A stretch of DNA of 33,257 bases from Myxococcaceae bacterium (GTDB taxonomy: Bacteria > Myxococcota > Myxococcia > Myxococcales > Myxococcaceae), in the NCBI GenBank assembly GCA_022842905.1, contig JALHOS010000034.1:1-33257 (forward strand). The letters are read 5' to 3'. The notes under the pieces were generated by a model. It was not told where the DNA came from. It worked only from the letters and a program-made list of their open reading frames with translations, and made no database searches. How positions within the stretch are numbered: position 1 is the stretch's first letter; every line of letters starts with the position of its first letter. The position numbers and the translations under genes are program-made. This document shows, piece after piece, positions 6,149-28,948 of this stretch.

Positions 6149-6230
6149 CGTCCGCGCAACTTTCGCTTTGCGCTCTGGGGGGTTGCAGCCCTACAGTCTC
6201 CCGTCTTTTTTCGCGAGGGGCTCTGACCGC

Positions 6231-7502
6231 GTGATCACGATCGAAGCGCATGGGCAGACGGACGTCGGCCGCAAGCGACAGCACAACGAAGACGCGTGGT
6301 TGGTCGACAAGGGCCTGGGCCTCTTCATCGTCGCGGACGGCATGGGTGGTCACGCCGCGGGTGAAGTGGCCAGCGCGCGCGCCGTCGAGGTGGTGCGCCA
6401 GCACGTCACCGGGAACAAGCAGATCCTCAAGGATCTCGCCAAGGAACCGAACCAGAACCACCGCGCCGCGGCGGCGACCATGGTTGAAGTCGCGGTCCAG
6501 CGAGCCTGCGCCGACATCTACAAGATGGCGTCGTCCGACGCTGCCAAGCGCGGCATGGGGACGACGTTCGTCTGCATGGTCGTCGCCGGCAACAAGGGCG
6601 TCATCGGCCACGTGGGCGACAGCCGCGTCTACCTGGTGCGCAACGGGCAGTGCCACCGGCTGACCGAAGACCACACGCTGATCGCCGCGCAGCTCAAGGC
6701 CGGGACGATCACCAAGGATCAGGCCGCCACCAGCGCGTACCGCAACGTCATCACCCGCGCCGTCGGCATTCAGGAGTCGGTGCAGGTCGACACGCTGCTC
6801 GTCGACATGGTGCCCGGCGACATCTTCCTGCTCTGCAGCGACGGGCTGCACGGCTACATGGCCGACGACGAAGTGCTGCCCGTCGTGCAGGCCAACGCGC
6901 TCGATCAGCAGCCGGCCCGGTTCATTCAGCTGGCGAACGAGCGCGGCGGCAAGGACAACATCACCGCCGTCGTGGTGCAGGTGGCGGGCGACGACGCGAC
7001 GGCGGCCGAAGAGGTCGTCGAAGCGCAGTCGCGCATGGAAGCGCTCAAGAAGATCCCGCTCTTCCGGCACCTCACCTACAAAGAGCAGACGGCGGTGCTG
7101 TCGGTCGCGAGCACGCGCACGTTCCCCGCGGGGCGGGAGATCGTCACCGAAGGCCAGCCGGGTGAAGAGCTGTTCGTCGTCATTCGCGGGCGGGTGTCGA
7201 TCGAGAAGGGCGGGGTGGAGATCGCCGAGCTGCGCGCCGGCGGCCACTTCGGCGAGATGGGGCTCATCGACAACGCGCCGCGCTCCGCCACGGTGCGAGC
7301 GATCGAGCCGACCCGGGTCATGGTGATCGCCCGGCCGGATCTGATGCACCTGATGAAGAAGGAGTCGATCCTCGCGGTGAAGCTGCTGTGGAGCTTCGTG
7401 CAGGTGCTGTCCGACCGGCTGCGCGAGACGAACTCGGAGCTGTCCGAGGCGCGGCAGGAGCTCGCCGCGGTGCAGGCGATCGCACCCTTTGCCGAGGAGT
7501 GA
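6231..7502 (+). CDS. PP2C-type Ser/Thr phosphatase fused to a cyclic-nucleotide-binding domain
   Basis: 423 residues. Residues 1-~255 are a PP2C/Stp1-like phosphatase with all metal-site motifs: RQHNEDAW (16-23), VADGMGGHAAGE (34-45), GTTFVC, GHVGDSRVYLV, LTEDHT, CSDGLHGY and GGKDNITAVVV. After a short linker, residues ~273-390 form a cNMP-binding domain; the phosphate-binding cassette FGEMGLIDNAPRSATVRA (~338-355) keeps the key Glu and Arg. The C-terminus is a helix likely to be coiled. The start is GTG 6231, with GAGGGG about 10 bases upstream. Known family behaviour suggests it removes phosphate from Ser/Thr kinase targets; control by cAMP or cGMP is inferred from the fusion. It sits 82 bases after the FHA gene. 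Confidence 0.92.
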   Translation: MITIEAHGQTDVGRKRQHNEDAWLVDKGLGLFIVADGMGGHAAGEVASARAVEVVRQHVTGNKQILKDLAKEPNQNHRAAAATMVEVAVQRACADIYKMASSDAAKRGMGTTFVCMVVAGNKGVIGHVGDSRVYLVRNGQCHRLTEDHTLIAAQLKAGTITKDQAATSAYRNVITRAVGIQESVQVDTLLVDMVPGDIFLLCSDGLHGYMADDEVLPVVQANALDQQPARFIQLANERGGKDNITAVVVQVAGDDATAAEEVVEAQSRMEALKKIPLFRHLTYKEQTAVLSVASTRTFPAGREIVTEGQPGEELFVVIRGRVSIEKGGVEIAELRAGGHFGEMGLIDNAPRSATVRAIEPTRVMVIARPDLMHLMKKESILAVKLLWSFVQVLSDRLRETNSELSEARQELAAVQAIAPFAEE

Positions 7503-8972: not shown

Positions 8973-11930
8973 ATGCGTCGAGCCCTCGCAGTCGCGGTCG
9001 TCGTGCTGGCGGTGGGCGCTGGGCTGGCGGTGTGGCTTGGGCAGGACCCGCCGCCGCCGGCCCTGCCCACCGCTGAGGCCGACGTCCCTTCCATTGCGCC
9101 GGTCGCCATCGCCGCGGCCCCAGGGCAGCCCTCGTACACCCTGACCGGCACCGTACGCGACGCCGCAGGTAAGCCCGTGCCCGGCGCCCAGGTGTTCGTG
9201 TCCGCGTCGAGCCAGGGGAGCCTGGCCACGCTGCGCTGCTTGACGTGCAACGAGCCGCTCTTGTCCTGCCACGCGCACCCGACGACGCAGGTGATCGGCC
9301 GCATGTTGGAAGCGCACCAGGGAGAGCTGGTGTCCGGCGCGACGGCCACCACCGACGCCGAAGGCAAGTTCCGCTTCGAACGGCTGGCGGGCATCTCCTT
9401 CACGGTGTGGGCGCGGGCGGCCGGCTTCGGCGCGGGGATCAAGGAGCGCGCGGCGCCGGGGGAGCCGGTGGAGCTGTACCTGCCGGCGCGGCGGCGGATC
9501 ACGGGCCGGCTGCGCGACGACAACGGGGCGCCGGTGCAGGGCGAAGTTCGCGCGCTGTCGCGGCGGCTGGCGCAGGCGGTCGTCGCCAAGGCCGAGGCCG
9601 ACGGGCAGTTCGCGCTCGACGAGCTGGGCGAAGGGCCGTTCTACGTGCTGGCTACGGCGCCCGGGAAGCTCCCGGCGGCGCTGCGCGACGTCGAAGCCGG
9701 GCCCGAGCCCGTCAGCCTCACGTTGCTCGCGCCGCGGCGGCTCGAGGTCACCCTGCTCAAGGACAAGAAGCCGATCGACGGCACCGTCATGCTCAGCGCC
9801 GATCACCTGTCCCGCGCGCTGCCGTCGAAGGACGGGCTCATGGCGGTGGACGCGCTCTACCCAGGCAAGCTGCTCGTGAGCGCCGTCGCCGGCTCGCTGT
9901 CGTCTTCGCCGCAGGCGGTGAGCCTGGACGCGCTGGTGACGAAGGTGACGTTGAACCTGGAGCCGGGTGGGCTGCTCCACGTCACCGTGAACGACGAGGC
10001 GGGCGAGCCGGTGCCGGACCCGTCGCTCGAGGTGCTGACCGCCAGCGGTGAGCAGGTGCTGACGCGCAAGCTGAAGACCGGCGAAGCGCCGACCTTGGGG
10101 CCGCTGGGCACCGGCGACTACGTGGTGCGGGCCACGGCGCTGGGCTTTCAGCCCGGGTCGGTGCCGCTCGCGCTCAAGGCGCAGGACAACGCCGTCGAGG
10201 TGACGCTGACGCGGGGCTTCGTGATCGCCGGGCGGGTGATCGACGAGTACGGCCGGCCCGCGCCGGGGGTGTCGGTGTTGATCTCGCCCTTGGGCGACAC
10301 CGTGATCGCCGACGCGGACGGGCGCTTTTCGTCCAACGTGCCGTCGGCGGGGCTCTACACGCTGCAGGCGCACCACTCGGACTGGGGCGGCGGCGAGCTG
10401 AAGGTGACGGCGCCGAAGACGGACGTGGAGCTGCAGCTCGAGCCGAAGGCCGCCGCGGAGATCGTGGTGACGGTGGACGGGCGCCGCGTCGAAGGGGCGA
10501 ACGCGGTGTTGATCTACCCGGAAGGCAACTTCCGCAGCGATCGGCCTTCGGGCGCCGACGGGATCGTGCTCATGCGTGGCCTCCCGCCCGGGCCGTACAC
10601 GCTCGTCGTGCTGCACTCGGAGTACCTGCCGTCGGAGCGCCAGGACGTGACGCTGGAAGACGGGGTGACGAAGAAGCTGAGCGCCGAGCTGAAGAGCGGG
10701 GCGGCGGTGACGGGGCGCGTGGTGGACACGCTGGGCGCGCCGGTCGCGGGGGTCAGCGTCAGCCTCGTGCCCCGGGCCGCTGAGCCGCAGGTGACGGACG
10801 GGAACGGCGCCTTCACGCTCAAGCCGCTCCGCGCCAAGGCGCCCTACGCGGTGCGGGTGCAGCAGCGCGGGTACGAGCAGCTCGAGCGCACGGTGGCGAT
10901 CGCCGGCGGCGAGCCGGTGAAGGTCGTCGTCAAGCGGCAGCCGATCTTCCGCGGGCGCGTGCTGGGTGACGGCCAGCCGCTCAAGCACTTCCGCGTCGAC
11001 GAGTTCGAGGTGAACAGCGCCGACGGGCGCTTCGAGCTGAGCCTTCCGGCGTCGGAGGATCGGGTGATCGTCACCGTGGAGGCGCCGGGCTTCGAAACGT
11101 TGATGGCGGACCGCCCGAACACGCCGGAGCTGGGCGATCTCGAGCTGACCCGCGCGCCGATGGTGTCCGGCCTGGTGCGCGACGAGGCCGGCAACCCCGT
11201 GCCCGACGCGGTGGTGAGCTGCGACACCTGCGAGCAGTCGGTGACCAGCCAGCTCGACGGCCGCTTCCAGCTCGGCCGCCCGTCGTACCAGCGCGAGTTC
11301 ACCGTCGTGGCGAAGAAGGGCCGGCGCACGGCGACGAAGACGGTCGCGGCGGACGCGACGACGGGGATCGAGCTGGTGCTCAAGCCGGGCGTGCGGCTGC
11401 TCGGCCGGGCGTACCTGCCCAACGGGCAGCCCGCGGCGGGGGTGGAGATCGCCGGCATTCACGTGGACCGCAGCGAGACCGTGTCCGTCGTCACCGGCGC
11501 CGACGGAAGCTATTCTGTGGAGCTCGCCCCGGGCATCTACCGGCTCATGCTCAACGCCTGGGCGTACGCGCGGCAGGCGGTAGATCCTCCGGCGAGCATC
11601 ATCGACGTGCAGGGCCCGGAGACGCGGCTCGACCTGGGCGTGGCGCCGGATCAGCCGCAGCTGACCGTCCGCCTCCAGCCTCGACCGGGCTGGGCGCTCT
11701 GGCTGCTCAAGGGCGACGTGAGCCGGGTGGGGAACCCGCCGTTCGAGCTGCTGCGCGCGAGCTGGGCGCAGCTGGTCTTCCAGCCCAGGCAGGGCGCGAT
11801 CACCTTCGGCTCCTTGCAGCCGGGCCGGTACACCGTCGTCTGGGGGAGCTTCCACGCCAGCGGTGACGCCACTCCCGTCTTGATGAGCGTCACCGTCCCG
11901 GGCCAGGCCGAGGTCGTGCTGCCTCGTTGA
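8973..11930 (+). CDS. large exported protein with repeated carboxypeptidase-regulatory-like domains
   Basis: 985 residues. The N-terminal helix RRALAVAVVVLAVGAGLAV followed by a Pro-rich linker is a signal anchor. About seven modules carry the G-x-V-x-D-x-x-G-x-P-x-x-G-A motif of carboxypeptidase-regulatory-like (CarboxypepD_reg/transthyretin-like) domains: TGTVRDAAGKPVPGAQV, TGRLRDDNGAPVQG, VNDEAGEPVPDPSL, AGRVIDEYGRPAPGVSV, TGRVVDTLGAPVAGVSV, SGLVRDEAGNPVPDAVV and LGRAYLPNGQPAAGVEI. Cysteines cluster at LRCLTCNEPLLSC and again at SCDTC, possible disulfides or a metal site. No catalytic domain is seen, so this is a structural or binding protein of the periplasm or cell surface. A long open frame on the opposite strand is a composition artefact. 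Confidence 0.88.
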   Translation: MRRALAVAVVVLAVGAGLAVWLGQDPPPPALPTAEADVPSIAPVAIAAAPGQPSYTLTGTVRDAAGKPVPGAQVFVSASSQGSLATLRCLTCNEPLLSCHAHPTTQVIGRMLEAHQGELVSGATATTDAEGKFRFERLAGISFTVWARAAGFGAGIKERAAPGEPVELYLPARRRITGRLRDDNGAPVQGEVRALSRRLAQAVVAKAEADGQFALDELGEGPFYVLATAPGKLPAALRDVEAGPEPVSLTLLAPRRLEVTLLKDKKPIDGTVMLSADHLSRALPSKDGLMAVDALYPGKLLVSAVAGSLSSSPQAVSLDALVTKVTLNLEPGGLLHVTVNDEAGEPVPDPSLEVLTASGEQVLTRKLKTGEAPTLGPLGTGDYVVRATALGFQPGSVPLALKAQDNAVEVTLTRGFVIAGRVIDEYGRPAPGVSVLISPLGDTVIADADGRFSSNVPSAGLYTLQAHHSDWGGGELKVTAPKTDVELQLEPKAAAEIVVTVDGRRVEGANAVLIYPEGNFRSDRPSGADGIVLMRGLPPGPYTLVVLHSEYLPSERQDVTLEDGVTKKLSAELKSGAAVTGRVVDTLGAPVAGVSVSLVPRAAEPQVTDGNGAFTLKPLRAKAPYAVRVQQRGYEQLERTVAIAGGEPVKVVVKRQPIFRGRVLGDGQPLKHFRVDEFEVNSADGRFELSLPASEDRVIVTVEAPGFETLMADRPNTPELGDLELTRAPMVSGLVRDEAGNPVPDAVVSCDTCEQSVTSQLDGRFQLGRPSYQREFTVVAKKGRRTATKTVAADATTGIELVLKPGVRLLGRAYLPNGQPAAGVEIAGIHVDRSETVSVVTGADGSYSVELAPGIYRLMLNAWAYARQAVDPPASIIDVQGPETRLDLGVAPDQPQLTVRLQPRPGWALWLLKGDVSRVGNPPFELLRASWAQLVFQPRQGAITFGSLQPGRYTVVWGSFHASGDATPVLMSVTVPGQAEVVLPR

Positions 11931-15612: not shown

Positions 15613-18600
15613 TCAGGCCCTGCGGCCGCGCCGCCGCCACCGCGCGAGCAGCGCCGCGATCGCCAGCCCAAAGCCCGCACCGCCCTGCCCACAGCTGCAG
15701 CCGATCGTGCCGGTCTTCCCCGGGTCGGCGATCTCGAACTGCAGCACGTCACCGCTGGCGTTGCCGTCCGGCGTGCTCGAGTACAGGCAGTAGAAGTACG
15801 TGCCCGGCTTGAGCCCGCTGGCCACCTGCGTGAGCTGCACCTCTTCGTGGCCGTTGCCTAGCGTCAGCCCTTCGGCAGGCACCGTGGTGCCAAACCCGAG
15901 AATGCAGACCAGCGGGCGCTCCGTGTCGTAGCGGAACCAGGCCTTGCCTTCGCTCCCGTTCGGGTTCGCCGCGCCGGTGAACGTGACCGCGCCGTCGGCG
16001 CCCACTTCCGCGCCTTGGGTGCGCGCCGTCGGTTGTGTCGGAGGCGTCGTGAAGGACTTGAGGCTGCCAAAGGCCGCGCCGCCCATGTTCGAGGCCACCG
16101 CGCAGGAGTGGTACGTGCGGTTCGGCTTCAGGTCCATCAACGCCAGGCTGAAGCTCATGGGGCCCGCGGCGCCGACCGGCAGGCCACCCATGGCCGGGAC
16201 TCGGGTGCCGAACAGATCGTCGCAGGCCGCCGGGCGCTCGAGGCTGTAGCGGAACCACCCGGTGGTCTCGGTGCCGTTCGGCGTGGCCGTGCCTCGCAGC
16301 GTCGCGGCGCGCAGCTGCACGTCGGTGGCGTCGTCCGTCACGACCGTCGGGGGCGGGGAGAAGGCCGTGAAGCTGAGCACCTGGCCAAAGCGCAGGCCGT
16401 ACTGGTTCTGGGCGATCGCGCAGAAGAAGATCGTCACGCCGGGCGCGAGCCCGACGATCGCCTGGGAGAACGGCACGTCGACCGCGCCGCTGCCGATGTT
16501 TGACGACCCCGTGAACGGCGCGCGCGTGCCGAACGTGTCGTTGCAGGTGCCGGGATCCGCCGTGTGGTAGCGGAACCACGCCGTGGTGGGCACGCCGTTC
16601 GCGCGGGCCGAGCCGTTGAGCGTGGGCATGCTGCTCGACACGTTGGTCGCCGACGACGTGGTGACGCCCGGCGCGGCGTGGGTGGTGAAGGACAGCACCT
16701 GGCCGAAGCTCGTGCCCACGACGTTCGTCGCGATCGCGCAGTAGTAGTACTGCGTGGCCTGCTGCAGCCCGGTCAGCGACTGGGCGACGGCCAAGGGCGA
16801 GCCGCCGCTGCCGACGTTGAAGCCTCCGCTCGCGGGCGATCGGGTGCCGAAGGTGTCGTTGCAGGTGCCGGGGTTGGTGGTGGCGTAGCGGAAGTAGGCG
16901 GTCGTCGGCGCGCCGTTCGCGGTGACGCTGCCGTTGATCACCGCGCCCACGTTGGTCACCTGGCTGGCCGCGACGGTCGTCGTCGTCGGCCGGTTCGGCA
17001 GCGTGAAGCTCTGCAGCGAACCAAAGGCAGTGCCGGCCGAGTTCTGCGCCACCGCGCACGTGTAATACGTGGCGCCGGGGACCAGCCCCATGGCGCCTTC
17101 GCTGAAGGCCACCGCCGTCGTCCCTGCGGGGATCGTGGTGCCGCCGGTCGCGGGGAGCCGCGCGCCGAAGCTGTCGTTGCAGGCCAAGGGGTTGGTCACG
17201 CCCACGCGCACCCACGCCGTCGCCGAAGCGCCGCCGGGGTTCACCGTCCCGCCGAGCAGGGCCGAGGTGCCGGTGATCATGCTTGGCGTCGTCGTGGTGA
17301 CGATCGGGAGCGCCGCGGGCGTCGTGAAGCTCTGCACCGCGCCGAAGCTCGTCCCAAACGTGTTCGTCACCATCGCGCAGAAGAAGTACGTGGTGCCTGG
17401 CTGCAGCCCGGTCGCGGTCTGGCTGAAGCTCTGCGGGGAGGTCCCGCTCCCGAGCGTGGCGCCACCGGAGGCCGGCGCGCGCGTCCCGAAGGTGTCGTTG
17501 CAGGTGCCCGGATCGTTCGGGGCCCAGCGGAACCACCCCGTCGTCGCCGCGCCGTTGGGCGTGCCGCTGGCGTTGAGCGTGGCGCTGCTCGCGGTGATCG
17601 ACGTGGCGGCGTTGGTCGTCACGGCAGGCGCGGCGGGCGTCGTGAAGGACTGTACGGTGCCGGTCCGGGTCCCTTCGGGGCTCGTGGCGATCGCGCAGAA
17701 GAAGTACGTCGTCGACGGCTGCAGGCCGGTGATCGCCTGGCTGTAGCTCGTGGCGGTCGAGCCGGCCCCCAGCGCGGACCCACCAGCGCCCGGCGCTCGG
17801 GTGCCGAAGGTGTCGTCACAGGTGCCCGGGTTCGTCGTCGCAAAGCGGAAGTAGCCCGTGGTCGACGCGCCGTTGGGCACCGCGCTGCCGTTGAGCGTCG
17901 CCGAGCTCGTCGTCACCGAGGTGACGCTGCCGGTGGTCGCCGTCGGGGGCGAAGGCGTGAAGAAGCTGAGGAGCGCGCCGGTCGACAGCCCGTTCGTGTT
18001 CTGGCCCAAAGCGCAGAAGTAGTACGTCGTCCCCGGCGTCAGCCCCGTGAGCGCCTGCGAGTACGTCACCGCCGACGTGCCCGTGCCGACGTCCGTGCCA
18101 CCCGTCGAAGGCGCCCGGGTGCCGAAGGTGTCGTTGCAGCTGCCGGGGCTCACCGTCGCGTAGCGGAACCAGCCCGTCGTCTGCGCGCCGAGCGGGTTGG
18201 CCGACCCGTTGATCGTGGCGCCGGTGCCGGTGACTTGGGTGGCGGCGGTCGTGGTGACGGTCGGCCCGGTCGGCGTGGTGAAGCTCAGCGTCGTGCCCGT
18301 CGTCGTGCCCGCGGCGTTCGTGGCGATCGCGCAGAAGTAGTACGTGGTGTTGGGCGCCAGGCCCGTCAGCACCTGCGAGAACGGTTGAGCGGAGCTGCCC
18401 GCGCCGACGTCCGTCCCTCCAGACGAGGGCAGCCGAACCCCGAGAGTGCAGACGCTGCTCGCGCTGGTGCTCCAGCGGAAGTAGCCCGTCGTCGTGGCGC
18501 CGCGTGGAATCGCGGTCCCGTTGAGCTGCGCCGAGCTGCTCGTCACCACCGTGGCCGCGGCGGTCGTCGTCGTCGGCGCGCCCGGCGTCGAGAAGCTCTG

Positions 18601-19488
18601 CACCGTGCCCGTGGCGATGCCGGCTGCGTTCTGGGCGATCGCGCAGAAGTAGTACGTCGTCCCGGCGGTGAGCGTGAAGGTGCCCGCCGCGAAGGAGACG
18701 GAGCTCGTCCCCGAGCCGAGCGGCGTGCCTCCCGAGCTGGGCGTGCGCGTGCCGAACGTGTCCGTGCAGGCGCCGGGATCGACGGTGGAGTAGCGGAACC
18801 ACGCAGTAGTGGCCGCGCCGTTCGGGTTCGCCGCGCCGTTGAGCGTGGCGAAGGTGCCCGTGATCGCCGACGCCGCGCCCGTGGTGACGACCGGGGCCGC
18901 CGGCGTGGTGAAGCTCTGGATCGAGCCGAAGCTCGTCCCTTCCGAGTTCTGGCCGATCGCGCAGAAGAAGTACGTGGTGGACGAAGTCAGGCCGCTGGCG
19001 GTCTGCGAGTAGCTGACGGCTGCCGTGCCGCTGCCCAGCGGCGAGCCCGACGTCGAAGGCACCCGCGTCCCGAACGAGTCGTCGCAGGCGCCGGGGTTGG
19101 TGGCCGAGATGCGGAAGTAGCCCGTCGTCGCTGCGCCGTTGGGATCGCCCGTGCCGCCCAGGAGGGCGCTCGAGCCAGTCACCGAGCTCGCCGCGGACGT
19201 CGTCATCGCCGGGGCGGCCGGCGTGGTGAAGGAGACGATCGTGCCGAACGCCGTGCCTTGTGAGTTGGAGGCCAGCGCGCAGGCGAAGTAGGTCGTGCCG
19301 GCCGTCAACCCGCCGAGGGCCTCCGTGTACGGCACTGCGCTCACGCCGCTGCCCAAGCTCGTGCCGCCGCTGGCCGGTGCCCGCGTGCCGAAGCTGTCGT
19401 CACAGGCCGTGGGGTTCGTCGTGGAATAGCGGAACCAGCCCGTCGCCGCGTCGCCGCGGGGGTTGGCCGAGCCGTTGAGGATCGCCTG
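15613..19488 (-). CDS. 3' part of the frameshifted 28-repeat Fn3-like MYXO-CTERM protein
   Basis: About 1291 codons continuing the repeat protein in the next frame after a one-base loss near 19488. It begins inside repeat 17 (QAILNGSANPRG) and carries repeats 18-28. Each has VTT..A..VT at its start, a NPG-C-DxFGTR loop, a GLxPGTTYYxCA strand and a closing SFTTP. Repeat 28 is degenerate. The C-terminus is a MYXO-CTERM-like sorting signal: CSC, the helix GAGFGLAIAALLA, then RWRRRGRR. By analogy with GlyGly-CTERM/MYXO-CTERM proteins the tail would be processed and the protein attached to the cell surface. No start codon with a ribosome site is seen near 19488, so unless the frame is restored this part may not be translated. 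The frame stays open upstream to 22791 only by chance. Confidence 0.8.
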   Translation of the reverse strand, partial: QAILNGSANPRGDAATGWFRYSTTNPTACDDSFGTRAPASGGTSLGSGVSAVPYTEALGGLTAGTTYFACALASNSQGTAFGTIVSFTTPAAPAMTTSAASSVTGSSALLGGTGDPNGAATTGYFRISATNPGACDDSFGTRVPSTSGSPLGSGTAAVSYSQTASGLTSSTTYFFCAIGQNSEGTSFGSIQSFTTPAAPVVTTGAASAITGTFATLNGAANPNGAATTAWFRYSTVDPGACTDTFGTRTPSSGGTPLGSGTSSVSFAAGTFTLTAGTTYYFCAIAQNAAGIATGTVQSFSTPGAPTTTTAAATVVTSSSAQLNGTAIPRGATTTGYFRWSTSASSVCTLGVRLPSSGGTDVGAGSSAQPFSQVLTGLAPNTTYYFCAIATNAAGTTTGTTLSFTTPTGPTVTTTAATQVTGTGATINGSANPLGAQTTGWFRYATVSPGSCNDTFGTRAPSTGGTDVGTGTSAVTYSQALTGLTPGTTYYFCALGQNTNGLSTGALLSFFTPSPPTATTGSVTSVTTSSATLNGSAVPNGASTTGYFRFATTNPGTCDDTFGTRAPGAGGSALGAGSTATSYSQAITGLQPSTTYFFCAIATSPEGTRTGTVQSFTTPAAPAVTTNAATSITASSATLNASGTPNGAATTGWFRWAPNDPGTCNDTFGTRAPASGGATLGSGTSPQSFSQTATGLQPGTTYFFCAMVTNTFGTSFGAVQSFTTPAALPIVTTTTPSMITGTSALLGGTVNPGGASATAWVRVGVTNPLACNDSFGARLPATGGTTIPAGTTAVAFSEGAMGLVPGATYYTCAVAQNSAGTAFGSLQSFTLPNRPTTTTVAASQVTNVGAVINGSVTANGAPTTAYFRYATTNPGTCNDTFGTRSPASGGFNVGSGGSPLAVAQSLTGLQQATQYYYCAIATNVVGTSFGQVLSFTTHAAPGVTTSSATNVSSSMPTLNGSARANGVPTTAWFRYHTADPGTCNDTFGTRAPFTGSSNIGSGAVDVPFSQAIVGLAPGVTIFFCAIAQNQYGLRFGQVLSFTAFSPPPTVVTDDATDVQLRAATLRGTATPNGTETTGWFRYSLERPAACDDLFGTRVPAMGGLPVGAAGPMSFSLALMDLKPNRTYHSCAVASNMGGAAFGSLKSFTTPPTQPTARTQGAEVGADGAVTFTGAANPNGSEGKAWFRYDTERPLVCILGFGTTVPAEGLTLGNGHEEVQLTQVASGLKPGTYFYCLYSSTPDGNASGDVLQFEIADPGKTGTIGCSCGQGGAGFGLAIAALLARWRRRGRRA

Positions 19489-22400
19489 GTGCCCGTGAGC
19501 ACCGTCGCGGCCGACGTGGTGACGGCCGGCGCCGCGAGCGTCGTGAAGCTCATGACCGTGCCGACCCCGGTGCCGACCACGTTCGAGGCCTGGGCGCAGT
19601 AGTAGTACGTGGTCGCGGGGCTCAGGCCCATGAGCGCCTGCGTGTACGGCTGGGCGCTGCTGCCGGCCCCCACGTTCGTTCCTCCGCTCGACGGCGCGCG
19701 GGTGCCGAAGGTCGTCGTGCAACTCCCGGGGTTGATGGTGCTGTACCGGAAGAAGCCCGTGGTGGTGGCCCCTCGCGGGTTGGCCGTGCCGTTGAGGTTG
19801 GCCGTCGTCGCGCCGATCGCCGACGCCGTGACGCTCGTCACCAGCGGCGTGCCCGGCGTGGTGAACGTGAGCACCGCGCCGAAGGACGTGCCAGCCGCGC
19901 TCGAGGCGAGCGCGCAGTAGTAGTACGTGGTCCCGCTGAAGAGGCCGGTGAGCGCGCGGTTGAAGGACACCGGCGCCGAGCCGTTGCCGAGCGCCAGGTT
20001 CGTCGCAGGCGTCGACGGCGTGCGGGTCCCGAAGCTGTCGTTGCAGCTGCCCGGATCGAGGCTGGAGTAGCGGAACCACGCCCCGGTGGCCGAGCCGTTC
20101 GGGTTCGCCGTGCCGTTGAGCGTCGCGGTGGTGCCGGTGACGAGCGTGGCCGGATCCGTCGTCACGCTGGGCGCGGTCGTGGTGGTGAACTGCTGCACGC
20201 TGCCGAACCCCGCGCCGACCACGTTCTGGGCGATCGCGCAGTAGTAGTACGTCGTCCCGGGCAGGAGCCCCGAGACGGCCTGCGTGTACGACGCCGCGAG
20301 GGAGCCGCTGCCCAGGTCCGTGCCTCCACTGGCCGGGGCACGCGTGCCGAAGGTGTCGTTGCAGCTGCCCGGGCTCGTCGTCGCGTAACGGAAGTAGCCC
20401 GTCGTCGAGGCGAGGTTGGGGTTGGCCGAGCCGTTGAGCGTCGCCACCGTGCTGCCGACGCCGGTGGCGACGACGGTGGTGACGGTGGGCAGGCCCGGCG
20501 TGGTGAACGTCTGCACCGTGCCGAACGTCGTCGCGACCGAGTTCTTGGCGATCGCGCAGTAGTAGTACGTGGTGCCCGTCGTCAGGCCGGTGACCGCGAT
20601 GTTGAAGGGCAGGGTGGTGTTGCCGCCGCCCACGTTCAGCTCCGTCGTGCCGCCCGGAGCGCGCGTGCCGAAGACGTCGTTGCAGTTGATCGGGTTGCTC
20701 GTGCTGTAGCGGAACCAGCCGGTGGTGCTCGCGCCGTTGGGGTTCGCGCTGCCGTTGAGCGTCGCGCCCGTGCCGGTGATGGCCGTCGGCGCCAGCGTGT
20801 TGGTGGCGGGCGCGGTGGGCGGCGTCGTGAAACTCAAGAGGGCGCCGTACGCCAGCCCCGCCGCGTTGTTGGCGATCGCGCAGAAGTAGTACTGCGTGCC
20901 AGGGAGGAGCCCCGACAGGCCCCGCGTGTACGGCTGCGCCACGGTGCCGGCGCCCAGCGCCGTCCCTCCCGTCGTCGGCACGCGCGTGCCGAAGGTGTCG
21001 TCGCAGCTGCCTGGGTTGGTGGTGGCGTAGCGGTACCAGCCGGTGGTGGTCGAGCCGTTGGGGTTGGCGGAGCCGTTGAGCGTCGCGGTGGTGGCCGTCA
21101 CCGGCGAGGCCGCGCTCGTGGTCACGGTCGGCAGCGCGATCGTCGTGAAGCTGAGCAGCGTGCCCAGCGTGAGCCCCACCGAGTTCTGGGCGATCGCGCA
21201 GTAGTAATACGTCGTGTTGGGGGAAAGCCCGGTGAGCGCCTGGCTGAAGGCCGTCGCGGTGTTGCCGGAGCCCAGGTCGGTACCCACCGGCGAAGGCACG
21301 CGGGTGCCGAAGGTGTCGTTGCAGACGGTGGGGTTCATCGTCGAGTACCGGAACCAGCCGGTGGTCGGCGCGCCGCGGGCGGTGCCCGAGCCGTTGATCG
21401 TGGCCGACGTGTCCAGCACCGACGTGGTGCCGACGGTGGTGACGGTGGGGGCCAGTGCCGGGGTCGTGAAGCTGAGCACCGCGCCGAAGCTCATGCCCAC
21501 CACGTTGCTGCCGATGGCGCAGAAGAAATACGTCGTGCCGGGCAACAGCCCCGACGGCGACACCGAGAAGGGCACTTCGACGAAGCCCGCGCCCAGCGCG
21601 TTGCCTCCGGAGATCGGCGCGCGTGCCCCGAAGCTGTCGTTGCAGGTGCCGGGGTTCGTCGTGGCGTAGCGGAACCACCCGGTCGTGTTCGCGCCGTTGG
21701 CGGTGCCTCGGGCCGTCAACGTGGCCGTCGTCGCCGTCACCGACACGGCGGGATCGGTGACGATGGTGGGCGCGGCCAGCGTGGTGAACTGCTGCACCGC
21801 GCCGAAGGTCGTGCCGACGCTGTTGGTCGCCGCCGCGCAGTAGAAGTACGTGGTGCCGGGCGTCAGCCCGGTGAGCGCCGTGTTGTAGTTGACGGAGAAG
21901 TTGCCGCTGCCGAGGCTGCTGCCGCCCGAGGTCGGCGAGCGCGTTCCGTAGGAGTCGTCGCAGGTGCCCGGGTTGACCAGGCCGAAGCGGAAGTAGCCGG
22001 TCGCCGCCGCGCCACCTGGGACCGCCGAGCCCAAGATCGTCGCCGCCGTCCCGCTGGAGACCGTGGAGCTGCCGGTCGTGACGATCGGCGCGGTGGGCGT
22101 GGTGAACTGAAACACGCTCCCGACGCCCGTGCCCGCGGAGTTGTTGCCCAGCGCACAGTAGAAGTACGTCGTGCCTGGCGTCAGGCCGGACAGCGGCTGA
22201 GAGAAGGCGACCGAGGCGTTGCCCGCGCCCAGCGCAGACCCCGAGCCCACCATGCCGGGCAGCCGCGTGCCGAAGGTGTCGTTGCAGGTGCCGGGGCTCG
22301 AGGTCGCGTAGCGGAAGTAGCCCGTGGTGGCCGCGCCGCCGGGGTTCGCGGTGCCGTTCAAGGTCGCGCTCGTCCCCGTCAGCAACGTCACGCTGCCGGT

Positions 22401-24641
22401 GCTGACGGCGGGGATCGCTGGCGGCGCGGTGAAGCCGAGGACGGCGCCGACGGAGGTGCCAACGGAGTTCGTTGCGATCGCGCAGAAAAAGTACGTCGTG
22501 CCCGGCACGGTGGAGATCGTCGACGCGTAGTTGGTGCCGGTCGTCAGCGTGGTGCCGCCGAAGGACGGGGTCCGCGTCCCAAAGCTGTCGTTGCACGTTC
22601 CCGGACTGACGGTGGAGTAGCGGAAGTAGCCGCTCGTCGACGAGCCGTTCGCCGAGCCTGTGCCGTTGAGCGTCGCGGTGGTCGGCGTCAGCGAAGACGC
22701 GGCGACGGTGGCGATCGTCGGCAGGTTCGGCGTGGTGAAGGTGACCGGCGCGCCCACGCCCGTGCCTTCGGCGTTCTGAGCAATCGCGCACAGGTAATAC
22801 GTGGTCCCCGGCAAGAGCCCGGTGGCCGTCTGTCCAAAGGACACGGGGCTCGAGCCCGCGCCCAGCGCCGACCCTCCGCTGACGGGGATCCGCGTCCCGA
22901 ACAGATCGTCACAGGCGATGGGGTTGGTGGTGCTGATCCGGAACCAGCCGGTGGTGCTGGCCAGGTTCGGGTTCGCCTGGCCGCTGAGCGTCGCGCTGAT
23001 GCCGTTGCTGCTGCTGCCCGCAACGGTGGTGACGGTCGGGAGCATGGGCGTCGTGAACTGCAGCACCCCGCCCACGCCCGTGCCGATCGCGTTGCTGGCG
23101 ATCGCGCAATAGAAGTACGTCGTGCCCGGGGTCAGGCCGGTCAGGCCCACGCTGTAGGCCACCGTCGAGTTGCCGTTGCCCAGCGAAGTGCCGCCGGCGG
23201 CCGGGGCGCGGGTGCCAAAGAAGTCGTTGCAGGTGCCGGGGCTCGCCGTCGCGTAGCGGAAGTGCCCAGTCGCAGCCGCGCCGCGCGGGTTCGCGCTGCC
23301 GTTCAACGTGACGGTGGAGCCCGTCAGCAACGTGACCGAGTTGGTGCCGACGGCCGGCGCGAGCGCGTCGGTGGTGAAGGTGTTGATGCCGCCGTAGGTG
23401 ATCCCCTCGAAGTTCTGCGCGATCGCGCAGTAGTAATACGTGGTGCCTGGCAGAAGCCCGCTCAGGGCGTTCGTGTAGAGGACGGGCGAGGTGCCGGTGC
23501 CCAGCCCCGTCCCTCCGGACGAAGGCGCGCGAACGCCGAAGGAGTCGTCGCACAGGCCTGGGTTGACGGACGCGTAGCGGAACCACCCTGTCGTCGACAG
23601 GCGGTTGGGCGTCGCTTCGCCGCGGAGCGTCGCCGTCGACGAGCCGAACACCGTCACCGGCAGCGTCGTGGTCAGCGGCGCCGCGCCGGTCGTGAAGGAC
23701 AGCACCGCGCCGAAGGTCGTCGCCACCGCGTTCTGGGCGATCGCGCAGAAGTAGTACGTCGTGTTGGGGCTCAGCCCGCTCGCGCCTTGGTTGAAGCTCA
23801 CGGGGTTGACGCCGCCGCCCAGGCTCGAGCCTCCGGACATGGGGACGCGGGTGCCGAAGGCGTCGTTGCAGCTGCCTGGATCCGACGAGGCGATCCGGAA
23901 CCAGCCAGTCGTCGCCGCCCCGCCAGGGTTCGCCTGGCCACTGAGCGTGGCCGTGGTGCCCGTCACGCTCGACGAGCTCGTCGTCGTCGTCACCGGTGCC
24001 GCGGTGAGCGTCGTGAAGGACAGCAGCACGCCGGTCGTCGTGCCCTGCGAGTTCGTCGCCTGTGCGCAGTAGTAGTACGTGGTGCCCGGAGAGAGCCCGG
24101 AGATGGTCTGGCTGAACGCCACGCCCGCGCTGCCGCTGCCCAGCGCCGTGCCACCGGAGATCGGGACCCGCGAGCCGAAGAAGGTGTTGCAGCTGAACGG
24201 GTTGGTGGCGCTGTAGCGGAAGAAGCCGTCGGTGCTGGCCCCGTTGGGGGTCGCCGAGCCGTTGAGCTGGGCGCTGTTGCTGGTGACGTTCGTCGCCGCG
24301 TCGGACACCGTCGTCGGGGCCAAGGCCGGCGTGGTGAACGACACCAGCGCGCCGAACGCCGTGCCCGACGTGTTCTGGGCGATCGCGCAGTACCAGTACG
24401 TCGTCCCCGGCGAGAGCCCCGTCGTCTGGAGGTTGTAGTTGACGGTCGCGCTGCCGCTGCCCACGTCGGTGCCGCCCGCGCCCGGCACGCGCACGCCGAA
24501 GTTGTCGTCACACGTCGTCGGGTTGGTCGTGCTGCGCCGGAACCAGGCCTGCGTCGACTCGCCGCCCGGGTTGACCTGGCCGTTGAGGAAGGCCGTCGCC
24601 GCCGTGACGGACGTCGCGCTGTTGGTGGTGACGGTCGGCGC
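15740..24641 (-). repeat. about 28 tandem Fn3-like protein repeats (~106 residues, ~318 bp each)
   Basis: Counting the closing S/QFTTP strand gives 28 units filling nearly all of the 9.1-kb gene. The unit reads: x-P-x-V-T-T-x-x-A-T, LNGxANPxGxxTTxWFRY, NPGxCxDxFGTRxP, GGTxLGxG, GLxPGTTYYxCAIAxN, GTxxG, then VxSFTTP. Two cysteines recur in nearly every unit, about 40 residues apart, probably an intra-repeat disulfide. Units are clearly diverged in sequence, so this is an old expansion and not a recent amplification. Confidence 0.9.
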
Positions 24642-24707
24642 CACGGCGTAGCTGCTCGTCGAGACGAGCGCGACGGCGAAGGCCAGGAGGCCCGGGAAGC
24701 GAGTCAT
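19341..24707 (-). CDS. 5' part of the 28-repeat Fn3-like surface protein (truncated by frameshift)
   Basis: 1788 codons as it stands. The N-terminus MTRFPGLLAFAVALVSTSSY is a signal peptide, cleaved after AYA/AVA-like residues ~21-23. Repeats 1-16 are intact and repeat 17 runs to VTTSAATVLTGT, after which the frame breaks and ~49 unrelated Arg/Ala-rich residues lead to a stop at 19341. ATG 24707 has AGGGAG 7 bases upstream. The original protein would be 3031 residues: 15613-24707 is 9095 bases, exactly one short of a multiple of three. The Fn3-like fold, the disulfide-type cysteine pairs and the C-terminal sorting signal in the 3' part point to a long surface fibre or adhesin. The partner is unknown. 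Confidence 0.85.
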   Translation of the reverse strand: MTRFPGLLAFAVALVSTSSYAVAPTVTTNSATSVTAATAFLNGQVNPGGESTQAWFRRSTTNPTTCDDNFGVRVPGAGGTDVGSGSATVNYNLQTTGLSPGTTYWYCAIAQNTSGTAFGALVSFTTPALAPTTVSDAATNVTSNSAQLNGSATPNGASTDGFFRYSATNPFSCNTFFGSRVPISGGTALGSGSAGVAFSQTISGLSPGTTYYYCAQATNSQGTTTGVLLSFTTLTAAPVTTTTSSSSVTGTTATLSGQANPGGAATTGWFRIASSDPGSCNDAFGTRVPMSGGSSLGGGVNPVSFNQGASGLSPNTTYYFCAIAQNAVATTFGAVLSFTTGAAPLTTTLPVTVFGSSTATLRGEATPNRLSTTGWFRYASVNPGLCDDSFGVRAPSSGGTGLGTGTSPVLYTNALSGLLPGTTYYYCAIAQNFEGITYGGINTFTTDALAPAVGTNSVTLLTGSTVTLNGSANPRGAAATGHFRYATASPGTCNDFFGTRAPAAGGTSLGNGNSTVAYSVGLTGLTPGTTYFYCAIASNAIGTGVGGVLQFTTPMLPTVTTVAGSSSNGISATLSGQANPNLASTTGWFRISTTNPIACDDLFGTRIPVSGGSALGAGSSPVSFGQTATGLLPGTTYYLCAIAQNAEGTGVGAPVTFTTPNLPTIATVAASSLTPTTATLNGTGSANGSSTSGYFRYSTVSPGTCNDSFGTRTPSFGGTTLTTGTNYASTISTVPGTTYFFCAIATNSVGTSVGAVLGFTAPPAIPAVSTGSVTLLTGTSATLNGTANPGGAATTGYFRYATSSPGTCNDTFGTRLPGMVGSGSALGAGNASVAFSQPLSGLTPGTTYFYCALGNNSAGTGVGSVFQFTTPTAPIVTTGSSTVSSGTAATILGSAVPGGAAATGYFRFGLVNPGTCDDSYGTRSPTSGGSSLGSGNFSVNYNTALTGLTPGTTYFYCAAATNSVGTTFGAVQQFTTLAAPTIVTDPAVSVTATTATLTARGTANGANTTGWFRYATTNPGTCNDSFGARAPISGGNALGAGFVEVPFSVSPSGLLPGTTYFFCAIGSNVVGMSFGAVLSFTTPALAPTVTTVGTTSVLDTSATINGSGTARGAPTTGWFRYSTMNPTVCNDTFGTRVPSPVGTDLGSGNTATAFSQALTGLSPNTTYYYCAIAQNSVGLTLGTLLSFTTIALPTVTTSAASPVTATTATLNGSANPNGSTTTGWYRYATTNPGSCDDTFGTRVPTTGGTALGAGTVAQPYTRGLSGLLPGTQYYFCAIANNAAGLAYGALLSFTTPPTAPATNTLAPTAITGTGATLNGSANPNGASTTGWFRYSTSNPINCNDVFGTRAPGGTTELNVGGGNTTLPFNIAVTGLTTGTTYYYCAIAKNSVATTFGTVQTFTTPGLPTVTTVVATGVGSTVATLNGSANPNLASTTGYFRYATTSPGSCNDTFGTRAPASGGTDLGSGSLAASYTQAVSGLLPGTTYYYCAIAQNVVGAGFGSVQQFTTTTAPSVTTDPATLVTGTTATLNGTANPNGSATGAWFRYSSLDPGSCNDSFGTRTPSTPATNLALGNGSAPVSFNRALTGLFSGTTYYYCALASSAAGTSFGAVLTFTTPGTPLVTSVTASAIGATTANLNGTANPRGATTTGFFRYSTINPGSCTTTFGTRAPSSGGTNVGAGSSAQPYTQALMGLSPATTYYYCAQASNVVGTGVGTVMSFTTLAAPAVTTSAATVLTGTRRSSTARPTPAATRRRAGSAIPRRTPRPVTTASARGHRPAAARAWAAA

Positions 24708-24777: not shown

Positions 24778-25941
24778 TCAACCCACCACGACCGTGAACT
24801 GTGCACCTTCTGGTGTCTCGAGGACGTCGCCGCCCAGCAGCCGCGTCGGCTTGACGGGGCGGCCGTTGATGAGGAGGGACGGGTGGGGCTGGGCGAGCCA
24901 ATACGCCAGGGGCTCGGTCTGGATCGCGAAGCTGGTGGCCGTGCCGTGGCGGGCTTGGGCCGACGGGCTCGCTCGGAGGCGGCCGGGCTCGGTGCTGCCC
25001 ACCCACAGGCCGGCGTCGAGCGACAGGCCGCGGGCGTCTTCGGCGAAGTCGGCCCGAAACTCGAGCGCGGGTGGAATGCGGCTGGGGCGCAGGAACGCCT
25101 GAGCACGCTGGAGGAGCAGCGGCTGAACGTCGAGCGCCGGGTGCCTCGTGCGGAGGCGGGCCTCGAGCGCGGTCAGGAACGGCGAGTCGCCCAGCGCTGC
25201 GTCGACGTAGCCGAGGGAGACGGTGCGCAGACACGGGAGCGAGAACCCGCCGAGCAGCCCGCGGAGCACCAGCGACGCGTCGGCCAGGCAGCGCGCCGAC
25301 GGCCGCTGATCGCGCAGGCACACGTCGACGGTGAGCCGCTCGATCCACCGCGCCAGGCGCAGGGCCAGCACCTGGGCCAAGAGCGTCACCTGCTCGGCGG
25401 CCGAGCTCGCGCAGCGCAGCGTGGCGGCGACGATGAGGCCGTGCCGCCAGTCCAACTCGAGCCAGCCCGAGTCCACCGCGCGGCGGGTGCCTTCGAGGCA
25501 GCGCGTGGCCGTTTGTCCGTGGGCGAGAGCGGCGCCGACGGGGTCGCCCTGCTCGAGCAGCCAGTCGGCCCACACACCGAGCGTCCGCAGGTCCGCCGGC
25601 GCCCGGGTGACCTGCGCTTCGAGCTCCGCGCTGACGGCCGAGGGGCGTGGTTGGTAGACGAAGAGCGCTCCGCCCACGTCGAGCACGTCGCCGTCGGTGA
25701 GCTCCGCGCGCTCCACCGGGCTGTCGTTGAGCCGGGTGCGGCCCAGCGGGAAGGGGTTGTGCACGGCCCAGCCGGACGGCGTGCGCTTGAGGCACAGCTC
25801 CCGGCGCGTTGCCCCCACCGGCGCTACCTGGAGCGCGGGCGGCGAGCTCTGGGAAAAGTAGACCCACGCCGGTGTGGCGGGCAGCGGCAGCTCCGCCGCG
25901 GTGAAGCCTTCCAGATCGATGCGCTTGAGCACGCCGCTCAT
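24778..25941 (-). CDS. FHA-like / TIGR02996-like protein (second of a paralogous pair)
   Basis: 387 residues, MSGVLKRIDLEGF onward. An N-terminal ~100-residue FHA-like region (LNDSPVERAELTDGDVLDVG) lacks the canonical SxxH. A central segment DLRTLGVWADWLLEQGDPVG (~130-150) matches the TIGR02996 'repeat-companion' motif, followed by LDWRHGLIVAATL. A C-terminal FHA-like end (PSLLINGRPVKPTRLLGGDV) has the NGRPV turn and GD loop. Architecture and many local motifs match the upstream neighbour, so the two arose by duplication. The ATG overlaps that neighbour's stop by 4 bases (ATGA). The function is unknown; loss of the phosphothreonine contacts suggests a structural FHA fold. Confidence 0.8.
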   Translation of the reverse strand: MSGVLKRIDLEGFTAAELPLPATPAWVYFSQSSPPALQVAPVGATRRELCLKRTPSGWAVHNPFPLGRTRLNDSPVERAELTDGDVLDVGGALFVYQPRPSAVSAELEAQVTRAPADLRTLGVWADWLLEQGDPVGAALAHGQTATRCLEGTRRAVDSGWLELDWRHGLIVAATLRCASSAAEQVTLLAQVLALRLARWIERLTVDVCLRDQRPSARCLADASLVLRGLLGGFSLPCLRTVSLGYVDAALGDSPFLTALEARLRTRHPALDVQPLLLQRAQAFLRPSRIPPALEFRADFAEDARGLSLDAGLWVGSTEPGRLRASPSAQARHGTATSFAIQTEPLAYWLAQPHPSLLINGRPVKPTRLLGGDVLETPEGAQFTVVVG

Positions 25942-27113
25942 GGCACCAGCTCGAAGCGGAACTTCGCCAGCCCGTGGAAGTCGAGCAGATCGCCGGGGAG
26001 CAGCTGGGCGGTGCGTACGGCGCGGCCGTTGAGCTTCACCTCGCCGTGGAGCTTGCCTACCATGAGCGTCCAGGTGCCGCCGTCGAACGCGAAGTAGCAG
26101 GGGTTCGTGTCCGACGAGAAGAACGCGAGGCCCGGCGGCGACTCGAGGTGCAGCGTGCGCCGGTCGGCCTTGCGTACGCGCGTCAGCTCGCGCAGCAGGC
26201 GGCCCCCTTCGTCACAGCCCGTCAGCCGCGCCCCCTGAGCGACCTCGACGACGAGCAGCCGCGCCGCGCTGGCGACCGAGAAGATGGGCCGCGCAGCGAG
26301 GCCCGGGGCCGCGGCCAACAGCGCCGCGCTCAGCCCGATCGGAGGCGCCGAGGTGGGGCCGATCCGGTAGCCGAAGGACAGCGCGCGGAGCCGCCGGCAG
26401 AGCGCGGGGACGCTGGCGACGAAGGTCTGGGCTCCCTGGAGCAACTCGTCGACGGGCGTCAGACTCGAGTCGAGCCGAGGGAGATCGACCGTCAGCGAGT
26501 GCAGCAGGCGCCCCACCCGCAGCCCGAGCAGCGCGTGCACGGCCTGCTGCCAGTCGAAGGCGAGGTGGCCGGCCACGGGTCGCAGCTGCGCGCGCCGCGC
26601 AAAGCCGTGGTGCCAGTCGATCTCCAGGGCGCCGGCGACGTAGAGCTCTCGCAGCGGGCCCAGCCACGGCAGATCGTTCTGGCGTTCGCCGCGCAGCGAC
26701 GCCAGCACCCGCGCGCCCAGCGGATCTTCGCGCTCGAGCAGCCAGTCGGCGAACACCTGCCAGGCCAAAGGATCGTCGTCGTGGCTCGCCAGCGCGTCGA
26801 AGGCGACGGCGTCGTCCGGCGCTTGAGGGCTGCGAAACTGGAGCTGCACCGCACCGAACTCGAGCCGATCGCCGTCGAACAGAGCGCGCGGAAAGGACAA
26901 CGGCACGCCGTTGACGCGGGTCCCCTGGGCGCTGCCCAAGTCCCGCACGGTCCAGAGCGCGCCGTCGCCGCTCAGCTCGCAGTGCACCTGGGAGAGCCGC
27001 GGATCGTCGAAGACCAGCGTCGCCTTGCGGCCCTTGCCCAGGGTGATGGTCGCCTTGCCGTCGGGCAGCTCGATCGGTTCCCCGGGCGGCTGCACGCGGT
27101 CCAGGCGGCTCAC
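25938..27113 (-). CDS. FHA domain / TIGR02996-like protein (first of a paralogous pair)
   Basis: 391 residues. An N-terminal FHA domain (~18-90) has ITLGKGRKATLVF, DPRLSQVHCEL (SxxH-type), LGSAQGTRVNGVPL and DGDRLEFG, so phosphothreonine binding is plausible. At ~115-145, AWQVFADWLLEREDPLGA matches the TIGR02996 motif, followed by IDWHHGFARRAQL. The C-terminus (~320-391) has a second FHA-like fold with KLNGRAVRTAQLLPGDLL. GTG 27113 is chosen: its G is the last base of the typA TAG (TAGTG overlap) and GGAAGAG lies just upstream. Earlier in-frame codons would overlap typA by up to 400 bases. It is translationally coupled to typA and to the next paralogue. Confidence 0.83.
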   Translation of the reverse strand: MSRLDRVQPPGEPIELPDGKATITLGKGRKATLVFDDPRLSQVHCELSGDGALWTVRDLGSAQGTRVNGVPLSFPRALFDGDRLEFGAVQLQFRSPQAPDDAVAFDALASHDDDPLAWQVFADWLLEREDPLGARVLASLRGERQNDLPWLGPLRELYVAGALEIDWHHGFARRAQLRPVAGHLAFDWQQAVHALLGLRVGRLLHSLTVDLPRLDSSLTPVDELLQGAQTFVASVPALCRRLRALSFGYRIGPTSAPPIGLSAALLAAAPGLAARPIFSVASAARLLVVEVAQGARLTGCDEGGRLLRELTRVRKADRRTLHLESPPGLAFFSSDTNPCYFAFDGGTWTLMVGKLHGEVKLNGRAVRTAQLLPGDLLDFHGLAKFRFELVP

Positions 27114-28948
27114 TACTCTTCCATGTCGCGCTTGCGATCCCGCTGCTCGCGGTAGCGCGTGTTGAACGCGAGGTTGCGCTTGCGCAGGCGAATGGACTTG
27201 GGCGTCACCTCGACCAGCTCGTCTTCGGCGATCCACTCGAGCGACTTCTCGAGCGTGATCTCCCGCGGCGGGGTGAGGATCACGTTCTCGTCGCGGCCGG
27301 CGGCGCGAATGTTGGTGAGCTTCTTCTCGCGGCAGGCGTTGACGTCGAGATCGCTGGGGTGCGCGTGCTCGCCGATGATCATGCCTTCGTACACGGGCAC
27401 GCCGGGGCCGACGAACAGCGCGCCGCGCTCTTGGATCGAGAACAGCGCGTAGGGGATCGTCTCGCCGATGCGGTCGGCGATGATCGCGCCGTTCGAACGC
27501 CGGGGGATGTAGCCCATCCACGGTTCCCAGCCGTCGAACTGGCTGGACATGATCCCTTCACCCTTGGTGATGGTGAGGAACTCGCCGCGGAAGCCGACCA
27601 GGCCACGCGCCGGGATCCGGAACTGCAAGCGCACGCGGGCGCCGCCGATCTGATCCATGCCCATCATGCGGCCTTTGCGAGGCCCGAGGCGCTCGGTGAC
27701 GATGCCGACGGACACCTCGGGCACGTCCGCGACGAGCAGCTCCATGGGCTCGTGCTTGACGCCGTCGATCTCCTTGGTGAGCGGCACCGGGTTCGACGCG
27801 GTCAGCTCGTAGCCTTCGCGCCGCATGGTCTCGATGATCACCGCCAGCTGGAGCTCGCCGCGCGCGACGACGCGGAAGGCTTCGGGCGTGTCGGTGTCCT
27901 CCACGCGGATCGACACGTTGCGGTAGGACTCGCGCTGCAGCCGGTCACGAATGTTGCGGCTGGTGACGTACTTGCCTTCGCGCCCGGCGTACGGCCCGTC
28001 GTTGACGCGGAACACCATCATCATGGTGGGCTCGTCGACCTTGATGCGCGAGAGCGCCTTGGGCGTCTCCGGGTGGCTGACGGTGTCGCCGATCGACAGG
28101 CCTTCGATCCCGGCGATGCAGACGATCTCCCCGGGGCCCGCGTCGGGGATCTCCACGCGCTTGAGGCCGGAGAAGCCGTACAGCTTGACCAGCTTGCCTT
28201 GCTCGACCTTCCCGCCGTCACGGCAGATCGCCACCGGCATGTTCGGCGCGAGCCGCCCAGACGTCATGCGGCCAATGCCGATGCGGCCGACGTAGTCGTC
28301 GTAGTCGAGGTTCGCGATCAGCAGCTGCGGCACCTCTTCCTCGGGCGGCGGCGGCGGGGGAATGTGGCTGATGATCGCGTCGAACAGGGGCTCGAGCGTC
28401 TTGCCCGGCACGTCGAGCGCCGTCGACGCCTTGCCTTCGCGGGCGATCGCGTAGAGCACCGGGAAGTCCAGGTCCTTCTCGTCGGCGCCGAGGTCGATGT
28501 AGAGCGAATAGACCTGATCGAGCACGTCCTTCGCGCGGGCGTCCTTGCGGTCGATCTTGTTGATCACCAGCACCGTCTTGAGGCCCAGCGCCAGCGCCTT
28601 GGACAGCACGAAGCGCGTCTGCGGCAGCGGGCCTTCGGCGGCGTCCACCAGCAACAGCACGCCGTCCACCATGCGCAGGGCGCGCTCGACCTCACCGCCG
28701 AAGTCGGCGTGGCCCGGCGTGTCGACGATGTTGACGAACTTGCCCTTCCACGAAATGGCCGTGTTCTTGGCCATGATCGTGATGCCCTTCTCACGCTCGA
28801 GGTCGTTCGAGTCCATGACGCGCTCGGCGACGACTTCGTTGGAACGAAAGGCGCCGCCCTGCCGAAGCATGAAGTCGACGAGGGTGGTCTTGCCGTGGTC
28901 GACGTGTGCGACGATGCCGACGTTGCGAATGTTCTCTCGGGGAAACAT
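27113..28948 (-). CDS. typA: ribosome-associated GTPase TypA/BipA
   Basis: 611 residues, the family's usual length. It is a translational GTPase that binds 70S ribosomes and helps 50S assembly at low temperature and under stress. Motifs: G1 [11 protein letters not shown], the switch/EKGITI region, G3 [14 protein letters not shown], and G4 NKIDRKDAR. Then come domain II ([13 protein letters not shown]) and the EF-G-like domains III and V, with the BipA-specific C-terminal portion ([19 protein letters not shown]). ATG 28948 has no clear Shine-Dalgarno (CGCGCCTCC precedes it). A TATAGG at 28965-28960 would give an almost leaderless transcript. Its stop overlaps the FHA gene's GTG. Confidence 0.96.

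Follow-up and report, generated by a model that had tools for sequence, protein, structure and literature searches.

Background

Giant bacterial adhesins such as SiiE, LapA and MpAFP are made of Ig-like beads, are stiffened by calcium and are secreted by the type I route. Most bacterial repeat adhesins are believed to gain and lose repeats. Another class of surface proteins carries a MYXO-CTERM tail, and in M. xanthus most of these are predicted adhesins or hydrolases (PMC11980579). The enzyme MrtX was shown to process one of them, TraA, and in the working model of that study type II secretion exports the folded client, which a lipid on its Cys then anchors (PMC11980579).

Here, we analyze a giant gene in a 33,257-nucleotide stretch of DNA from a Myxococcaceae bacterium (hereafter, the window). 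The protein resembles SiiE, LapA and MpAFP in having tens of beta-sandwich beads per surface chain. It differs from them by a putative disulfide in each bead, by a type II/MYXO-CTERM route that we infer, and by the lack of a head domain. By analogy, this member of the Fn3 fold may work like the known bead-on-a-string adhesins.

Organization of the giant gene

The earlier note had described one gene encoding a 3031-residue protein at positions 15613-24707. These coordinates hold, and we can add that the gene lies on the minus strand. The single open frame does not hold: the interval 24707-15613 spans 9095 nt, which is not a multiple of 3, and is covered by two frames, so the 3031 residues correspond to a read-through. 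The layout is as follows.

15613-24707, minus strand: whole gene, ATG at 24707-24705, stop at 15615-15613, one frame change in unit 17
24642-24707, minus strand: signal peptide region MTRFPGLLAFAVALVSTSSYAV, from reading the sequence
19530-24641, minus strand: units 1-16, first reading frame
19216-19529, minus strand: unit 17, with a single frame disruption at about 19485-19500
15727-19215, minus strand: units 18-28, second reading frame; units 27-28 are the most divergent
15616-15726, minus strand: MYXO-CTERM-like tail (...TGTIGCSC, hydrophobic helix, RWRRRGRRA), with sub-threshold model scores
21135-21452, minus strand: unit 11, modelled alone (beta-sandwich, pLDDT 97.6, pTM 0.88)
20814-21773, minus strand: units 10-12, modelled jointly (pLDDT 96.3, pTM 0.77, block means 93-98 throughout)

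An SD-like AGGGAG is found just 5' of the ATG at 24707. The N-terminal signal peptide, which had been proposed earlier, reads MTRFPGLLAFAVALVSTSSYA, and unit 1 starts directly after it, with no separate head domain between the two in the window protein. The frame 25106-19341 (minus strand) reads from the start codon into the first part of unit 17, and the rest of the gene is in the frame 22791-15613 (minus strand). This one-base disruption is the sole lesion, as there is no further stop or frame change across the 9.1 kb. In relatives the homologous arrays are uninterrupted single frames of 3022 to 3435 aa, and units 18-28, although downstream of the frame change, still have their 22 cysteines and still resemble the units of relatives. 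We therefore take the disruption to be either a recent lesion or an error of assembly. Programmed frameshifting is not supported, since relatives lack any frame change. That the gene is a genuine pseudogene in this strain is possible but doubtful: the frame change is clear, does not lie at a long homopolymer and has no counterpart in the single frames of relatives, but the absence of a second lesion and the well-kept units downstream count against it, and a one-base error is plausible in a draft assembly of 667 contigs (genome of 7.85 Mb). A strain with this disruption may produce the first 16 units alone, missing the anchor.

The earlier count of about 28 units of some 106 residues agrees with our delimitation of 28 tandem units of 103-108 residues, joined by very short, Pro-containing linkers. 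Their pairwise identity averages 51% (range 31-69%). Of the 58 cysteines in the protein, 56 belong to the 28 units, two apiece, and the other 2 to the terminal GCSC. As noted before, the cysteines of the units are at fixed positions, their spacing being 37-43 and usually 41 across the 28 window units. The alignment of 27 of these units has eight invariant positions: P2, R35, C44, G49, P53, C85, G97 and F102. Judged by a profile search, the repeat is far beyond chance: the unit profile matches 28 places in the window genome (E between 2e-45 and 4e-33) and no others, an outcome that is in part built in, since 27 of the window units went into the profile. Judged from its DNA, the array is old and was not recently amplified, since the units have a mean nucleotide identity of 61.5% and the longest identical run is 35 bases. 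A three-unit period is absent from the window array.

Fold of the unit and its cysteine pair

The units had been suggested to fold as compact Fn3-like beta-sandwiches, and structure prediction bears this out. The AF2 model of unit 11, a single unit modelled with the help of the other units, is a compact seven-strand Fn3 beta-sandwich with the high scores listed above. In the joint model of units 10-12 the sandwiches recur and the linkers are also predicted with confidence. The PDB folds closest to the unit 11 model are the sensor domain of the clostridial anti-sigma factor RsgI4 (E 6e-5, TM 0.64, 19% identity) and animal Fn3 domains. The best matches of the three-unit model are tandem Fn3 segments from receptors of cell adhesion and related proteins, namely sDscam, contactins, RPTP-mu, LAR, fibronectin and titin (approximately 1e-10 to 1e-8). 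No close homologue of solved structure came from searching the sequence profile against the PDB, which gave weak and mostly antibody matches.

There is no dedicated Pfam or NCBIfam model for this unit, which we call Cys-Fn3. The whole protein exceeds the gathering cut-off of PF00041 (25) with 42.8 and 70.9 bits, which are sums over the repeats, single stretches being weak. The unit shares with Fn3 (PF00041) and the Fn3-like PF16656 (Pur_ac_phosph_N) the seven-strand sandwich, the L-x-P-G-T-x-Y tyrosine-corner region and the tandem use, and its scores summed over proteins are above the cut-offs of these models. It differs from both in that nearly all units combine an enlarged, Cys44-bearing C-C' loop with a second Cys in strand F, in the invariance of R35, G49 and P53 in the window units, and in lacking a model of its own. 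The labels "Pur_ac_phosph_N" and "PME inhibitor" reflect a partial resemblance in fold or composition, and neither a phosphatase nor a pectinesterase domain was detected.

In the predicted secondary structure, Cys44 lies in the enlarged C-C' loop (NPGxCNDxFGTRxP) that connects strand C (30-37) to strand C' (50-52). Cys85 is part of strand F (81-89). The C-C' loop of ordinary Fn3 domains is usually shorter, and the position of C85 in Fn3 repeats of the TxYxxR type is usually taken by a solvent-facing residue. Because strands C, F and C' share one sheet, a C44-C85 staple between the loop and strand F is plausible in the models. Both cysteines occur together in all 28 window units, and the earlier observation of a repeated pair extends to many species: across the 583 units in which the two positions could be aligned, the full pair occurs in 575, no cysteine in 7 and a lone cysteine in 1. 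The units with neither are the 3 units of a Ferruginibacter protein, where the pair is replaced by G/W, G/W and P/S, and 4 more distant units of L050. This paired presence and loss is the strongest support for a putative disulfide within the unit. The units appear to form a coherent Fn3 subfamily with such a disulfide built in, one that has had no name so far, in line with the distinct subfamily suggested previously. The Ferruginibacter protein (L071:9101-10987, plus strand, from a MAG), in whose three units both cysteines were lost together, is fused to a Peptidase_S74 chaperone domain.

Sorting tail and probable anchoring

After the N-terminal signal peptide and the units, the protein ends in the MYXO-CTERM architecture, a Cys motif followed by a TM helix and an Arg cluster (GCSC...GFGLAIAALLARWRRRGRRA). 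The tail scores about 10-13 bits against the MYXO-CTERM models TIGR03901 and TIGR03382 (12.6; 10.5-12.2), below both cut-offs (20 and 15.85 bits). Ten tails were scanned: each of the nine from homologues clears the cut-off of at least one of the two models, and the one that fails is the window's. MrtX itself (NF040593) is encoded in the same genome, with 329 bits for a cut-off of 180. Hence, the surface-sorting tail proposed earlier is borne out by the homologues and by MrtX, and not by the score of the window's own tail. The protein resembles TraA-type MYXO-CTERM proteins (PMC11980579) in its signal peptide, GCxC motif, TM helix, Arg tail and the presence of MrtX in the genome, and differs from them by its sub-threshold tail and by having 28 Fn3 units instead of the architecture of TraA. 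Based on the nine homologous tails and MrtX, surface anchoring of the giant protein is likely, and the protein is probably a MYXO-CTERM protein, which its own score leaves unconfirmed. A chain of this size would be unusual for the type II route.

Homologous arrays in other genomes

A search with the unit profile gave matches at E <= 1e-20 in 21 of the 96 genomes of the taxonomic family. These are the window genus, all seven species of its sister genus (g4), three of six g16, g9, a few genomes with single or low copies, and seven genomes of the Myxococcus group (g23, an inferred label), which have two units in one protein. Homologues of similar length, which the earlier note had proposed to look for, are thus present in related species. 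Complete 28-unit arrays are found in the window and in five g4 species. In the two other g4 species the array is split across contigs (20+8 and 12+16), which is consistent with 28, so that all eight species examined, from two genera, have 28 units or are consistent with it. Three g16 species have 30 units, and other lineages have 32, 30, 26, 22 and 45. The first complete arrays, with 22, 26, 28, 30 or 32 units, suggested an even number, but G163 has 45. There is also no lag-2 signal of a two-unit period.

The order of the units is conserved as well. Within g4, unit i pairs with unit i, with a diagonal identity of 0.67-0.94 versus 0.50-0.52 off the diagonal, and the diagonal is the best match for 22-28 of 27-28 units. 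Between the window and g4, the diagonal identity is 0.58-0.60 versus 0.50-0.52 off the diagonal, and the diagonal is best for 9-13 units. Unit positions 1, 10 and 11 are more conserved than the others. The giant gene is under purifying selection in relatives (dN/dS 0.13-0.40 between relatives). In five arrays from outside the Myxococcaceae (L061, L065, L068, L077 and L115) units are nearest to their third neighbour (0/300 permutations), from which these arrays were probably built from three-unit blocks. One of them, the 4867-aa ORF of L115+L116 (G163:C7), has its 45 units in one frame, the three-unit period and a GCNC-TM-Arg tail.

The genome records matched include Archangium, Myxococcus, and MAGs of Polyangiaceae and Myxococcaceae, as well as single MAGs of Acidobacteria, Anaerolinea, Ferruginibacter and Parcubacteria. 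The matches in the latter four may reflect transfer or mis-binning. Cys-Fn3 units in the MAGs labelled Acidobacteria, Anaerolinea and Parcubacteria are those of L060, L064, L079 and L080. Searches of phages, plasmids and viral contigs for Cys-Fn3 units gave no match, and the matches in BFVD are generic Fn3 folds, which led us to discard a phage, virus or plasmid origin of the array.

Proposed role

We hold, with moderate confidence, that the giant protein forms a rod on the cell surface, anchored by a lipid, built of disulfide-stapled Fn3 beads and probably serving adhesion. In an uncultured Myxococcaceae species, a Sec signal peptide would be followed by 28 Fn3 sandwiches and a MYXO-CTERM tail. 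The loop cysteine would be oxidised in the periplasm to the cysteine of strand F, a bond that would hold the C-C' loop down on the sheet and make the bead more stable. Once the Cys is lipidated, MrtX would trim the tail, and the folded protein would reach the surface through type II export, as has been proposed for TraA. In this arrangement its N-terminus could stand off by some 100 nm (28 units at about 3.5 nm each, a rise estimated from known Fn3 rods), and the non-identical beads, arrayed in a set order, could adhere to cells, matrix or prey. Counting against this reading are the sub-threshold tail of the window, the absence of any known ligand-binding domain in the 28-unit protein and the lack of a conserved neighbour outside the sister genus.

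A passive spacer or coat, keeping neighbours, phage or predators at a distance without a specific ligand, would fit a protein with no dedicated head or enzyme domain, whose units begin right after the signal peptide and number 28, or consistently so, in all eight species. Yet a pure spacer would need neither units conserved by position (diagonal 0.67-0.94 versus 0.51 off it) nor the stronger conservation of positions 1, 10 and 11, and we regard it as unlikely. Conserved number and order also raise the idea of a surface ruler of fixed length, in which bead count and order would be selected across genera to set a spacing of about 100 nm between cells or between cell and surface. This seems to us similarly improbable, and the units, at their mean nucleotide identity, may simply be too diverged to recombine. 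Slightly less probable still is a scaffold that binds polysaccharide, a reading in which the Cys-Fn3 unit serves sugar-active secreted proteins as an accessory module. It draws on the g23 proteins, of which the one scanned has its two units behind an Apiosidase-like catalytic domain and Collagen_bind_2 (two more have the same sequence layout), and on the top solved fold, RsgI4, being part of a biomass-sensing system. These Apiosidase-like proteins (L099-L101) have the same unit as the window array, with about 143 bits for the window profile, but carry two units on a catalytic domain without the long array. The 28-unit protein has no catalytic or lectin domain, its likeness to RsgI4 is that of a TM of 0.64 at 19% identity, and accessory units could be mere spacers in sugar-active proteins.

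The earlier observation is hence partly confirmed, and its interpretation partly supported, with adhesion or recognition, and stiffness along the whole chain, as its putative parts. The Cys-Fn3 subfamily appears to build giant surface proteins of 22-45 beads, mainly in uncultured Myxococcota. Since these arrays preserve how many diverged beads they have and in which order, they offer a natural test of whether the length of a surface rod is selected. The two-unit versions in the seven Myxococcus-group genomes, some of them finished chromosomes, would be more tractable for structure.

Neighbouring genes and other features

The giant gene is preceded, at a distance of 70 bases and on its own strand, by a 387-aa gene without Pfam match; an FHA-domain gene and then TypA/BipA lie further upstream. 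Downstream, on the opposite strand, are genes for an esterase, UDG, CoaBC and a CarboxypepD_reg repeat protein. None of the window neighbours was found beside the arrays of relatives in the flanking stretches examined, and therefore no partner can be deduced; a conserved operon partner across genera was discarded, as no neighbour is kept outside the sister genus. In the same genome, a giant open frame of 2863 aa (G000:C179) has at least 10 ordinary fn3 matches; it has no match to the unit profile and is unrelated to the Cys-Fn3 subfamily.

Several other genes of the window deserve mention. The two adjacent upstream genes, one with the FHA domain (24778-27521, minus strand), have similar C-terminal ends (LLGGDVLETPEGAQFTVVVG and LLPGDLLDFHGLAKFRFELVP). 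The CarboxypepD_reg repeat protein near the giant gene (8973-11930, plus strand) is a surface-type protein of 985 aa with at least 6 CarboxypepD_reg-like beta-sandwich repeats. Finally, positions 6168-7502 (plus strand) encode a PP2C phosphatase fused to a cyclic-nucleotide-binding domain.
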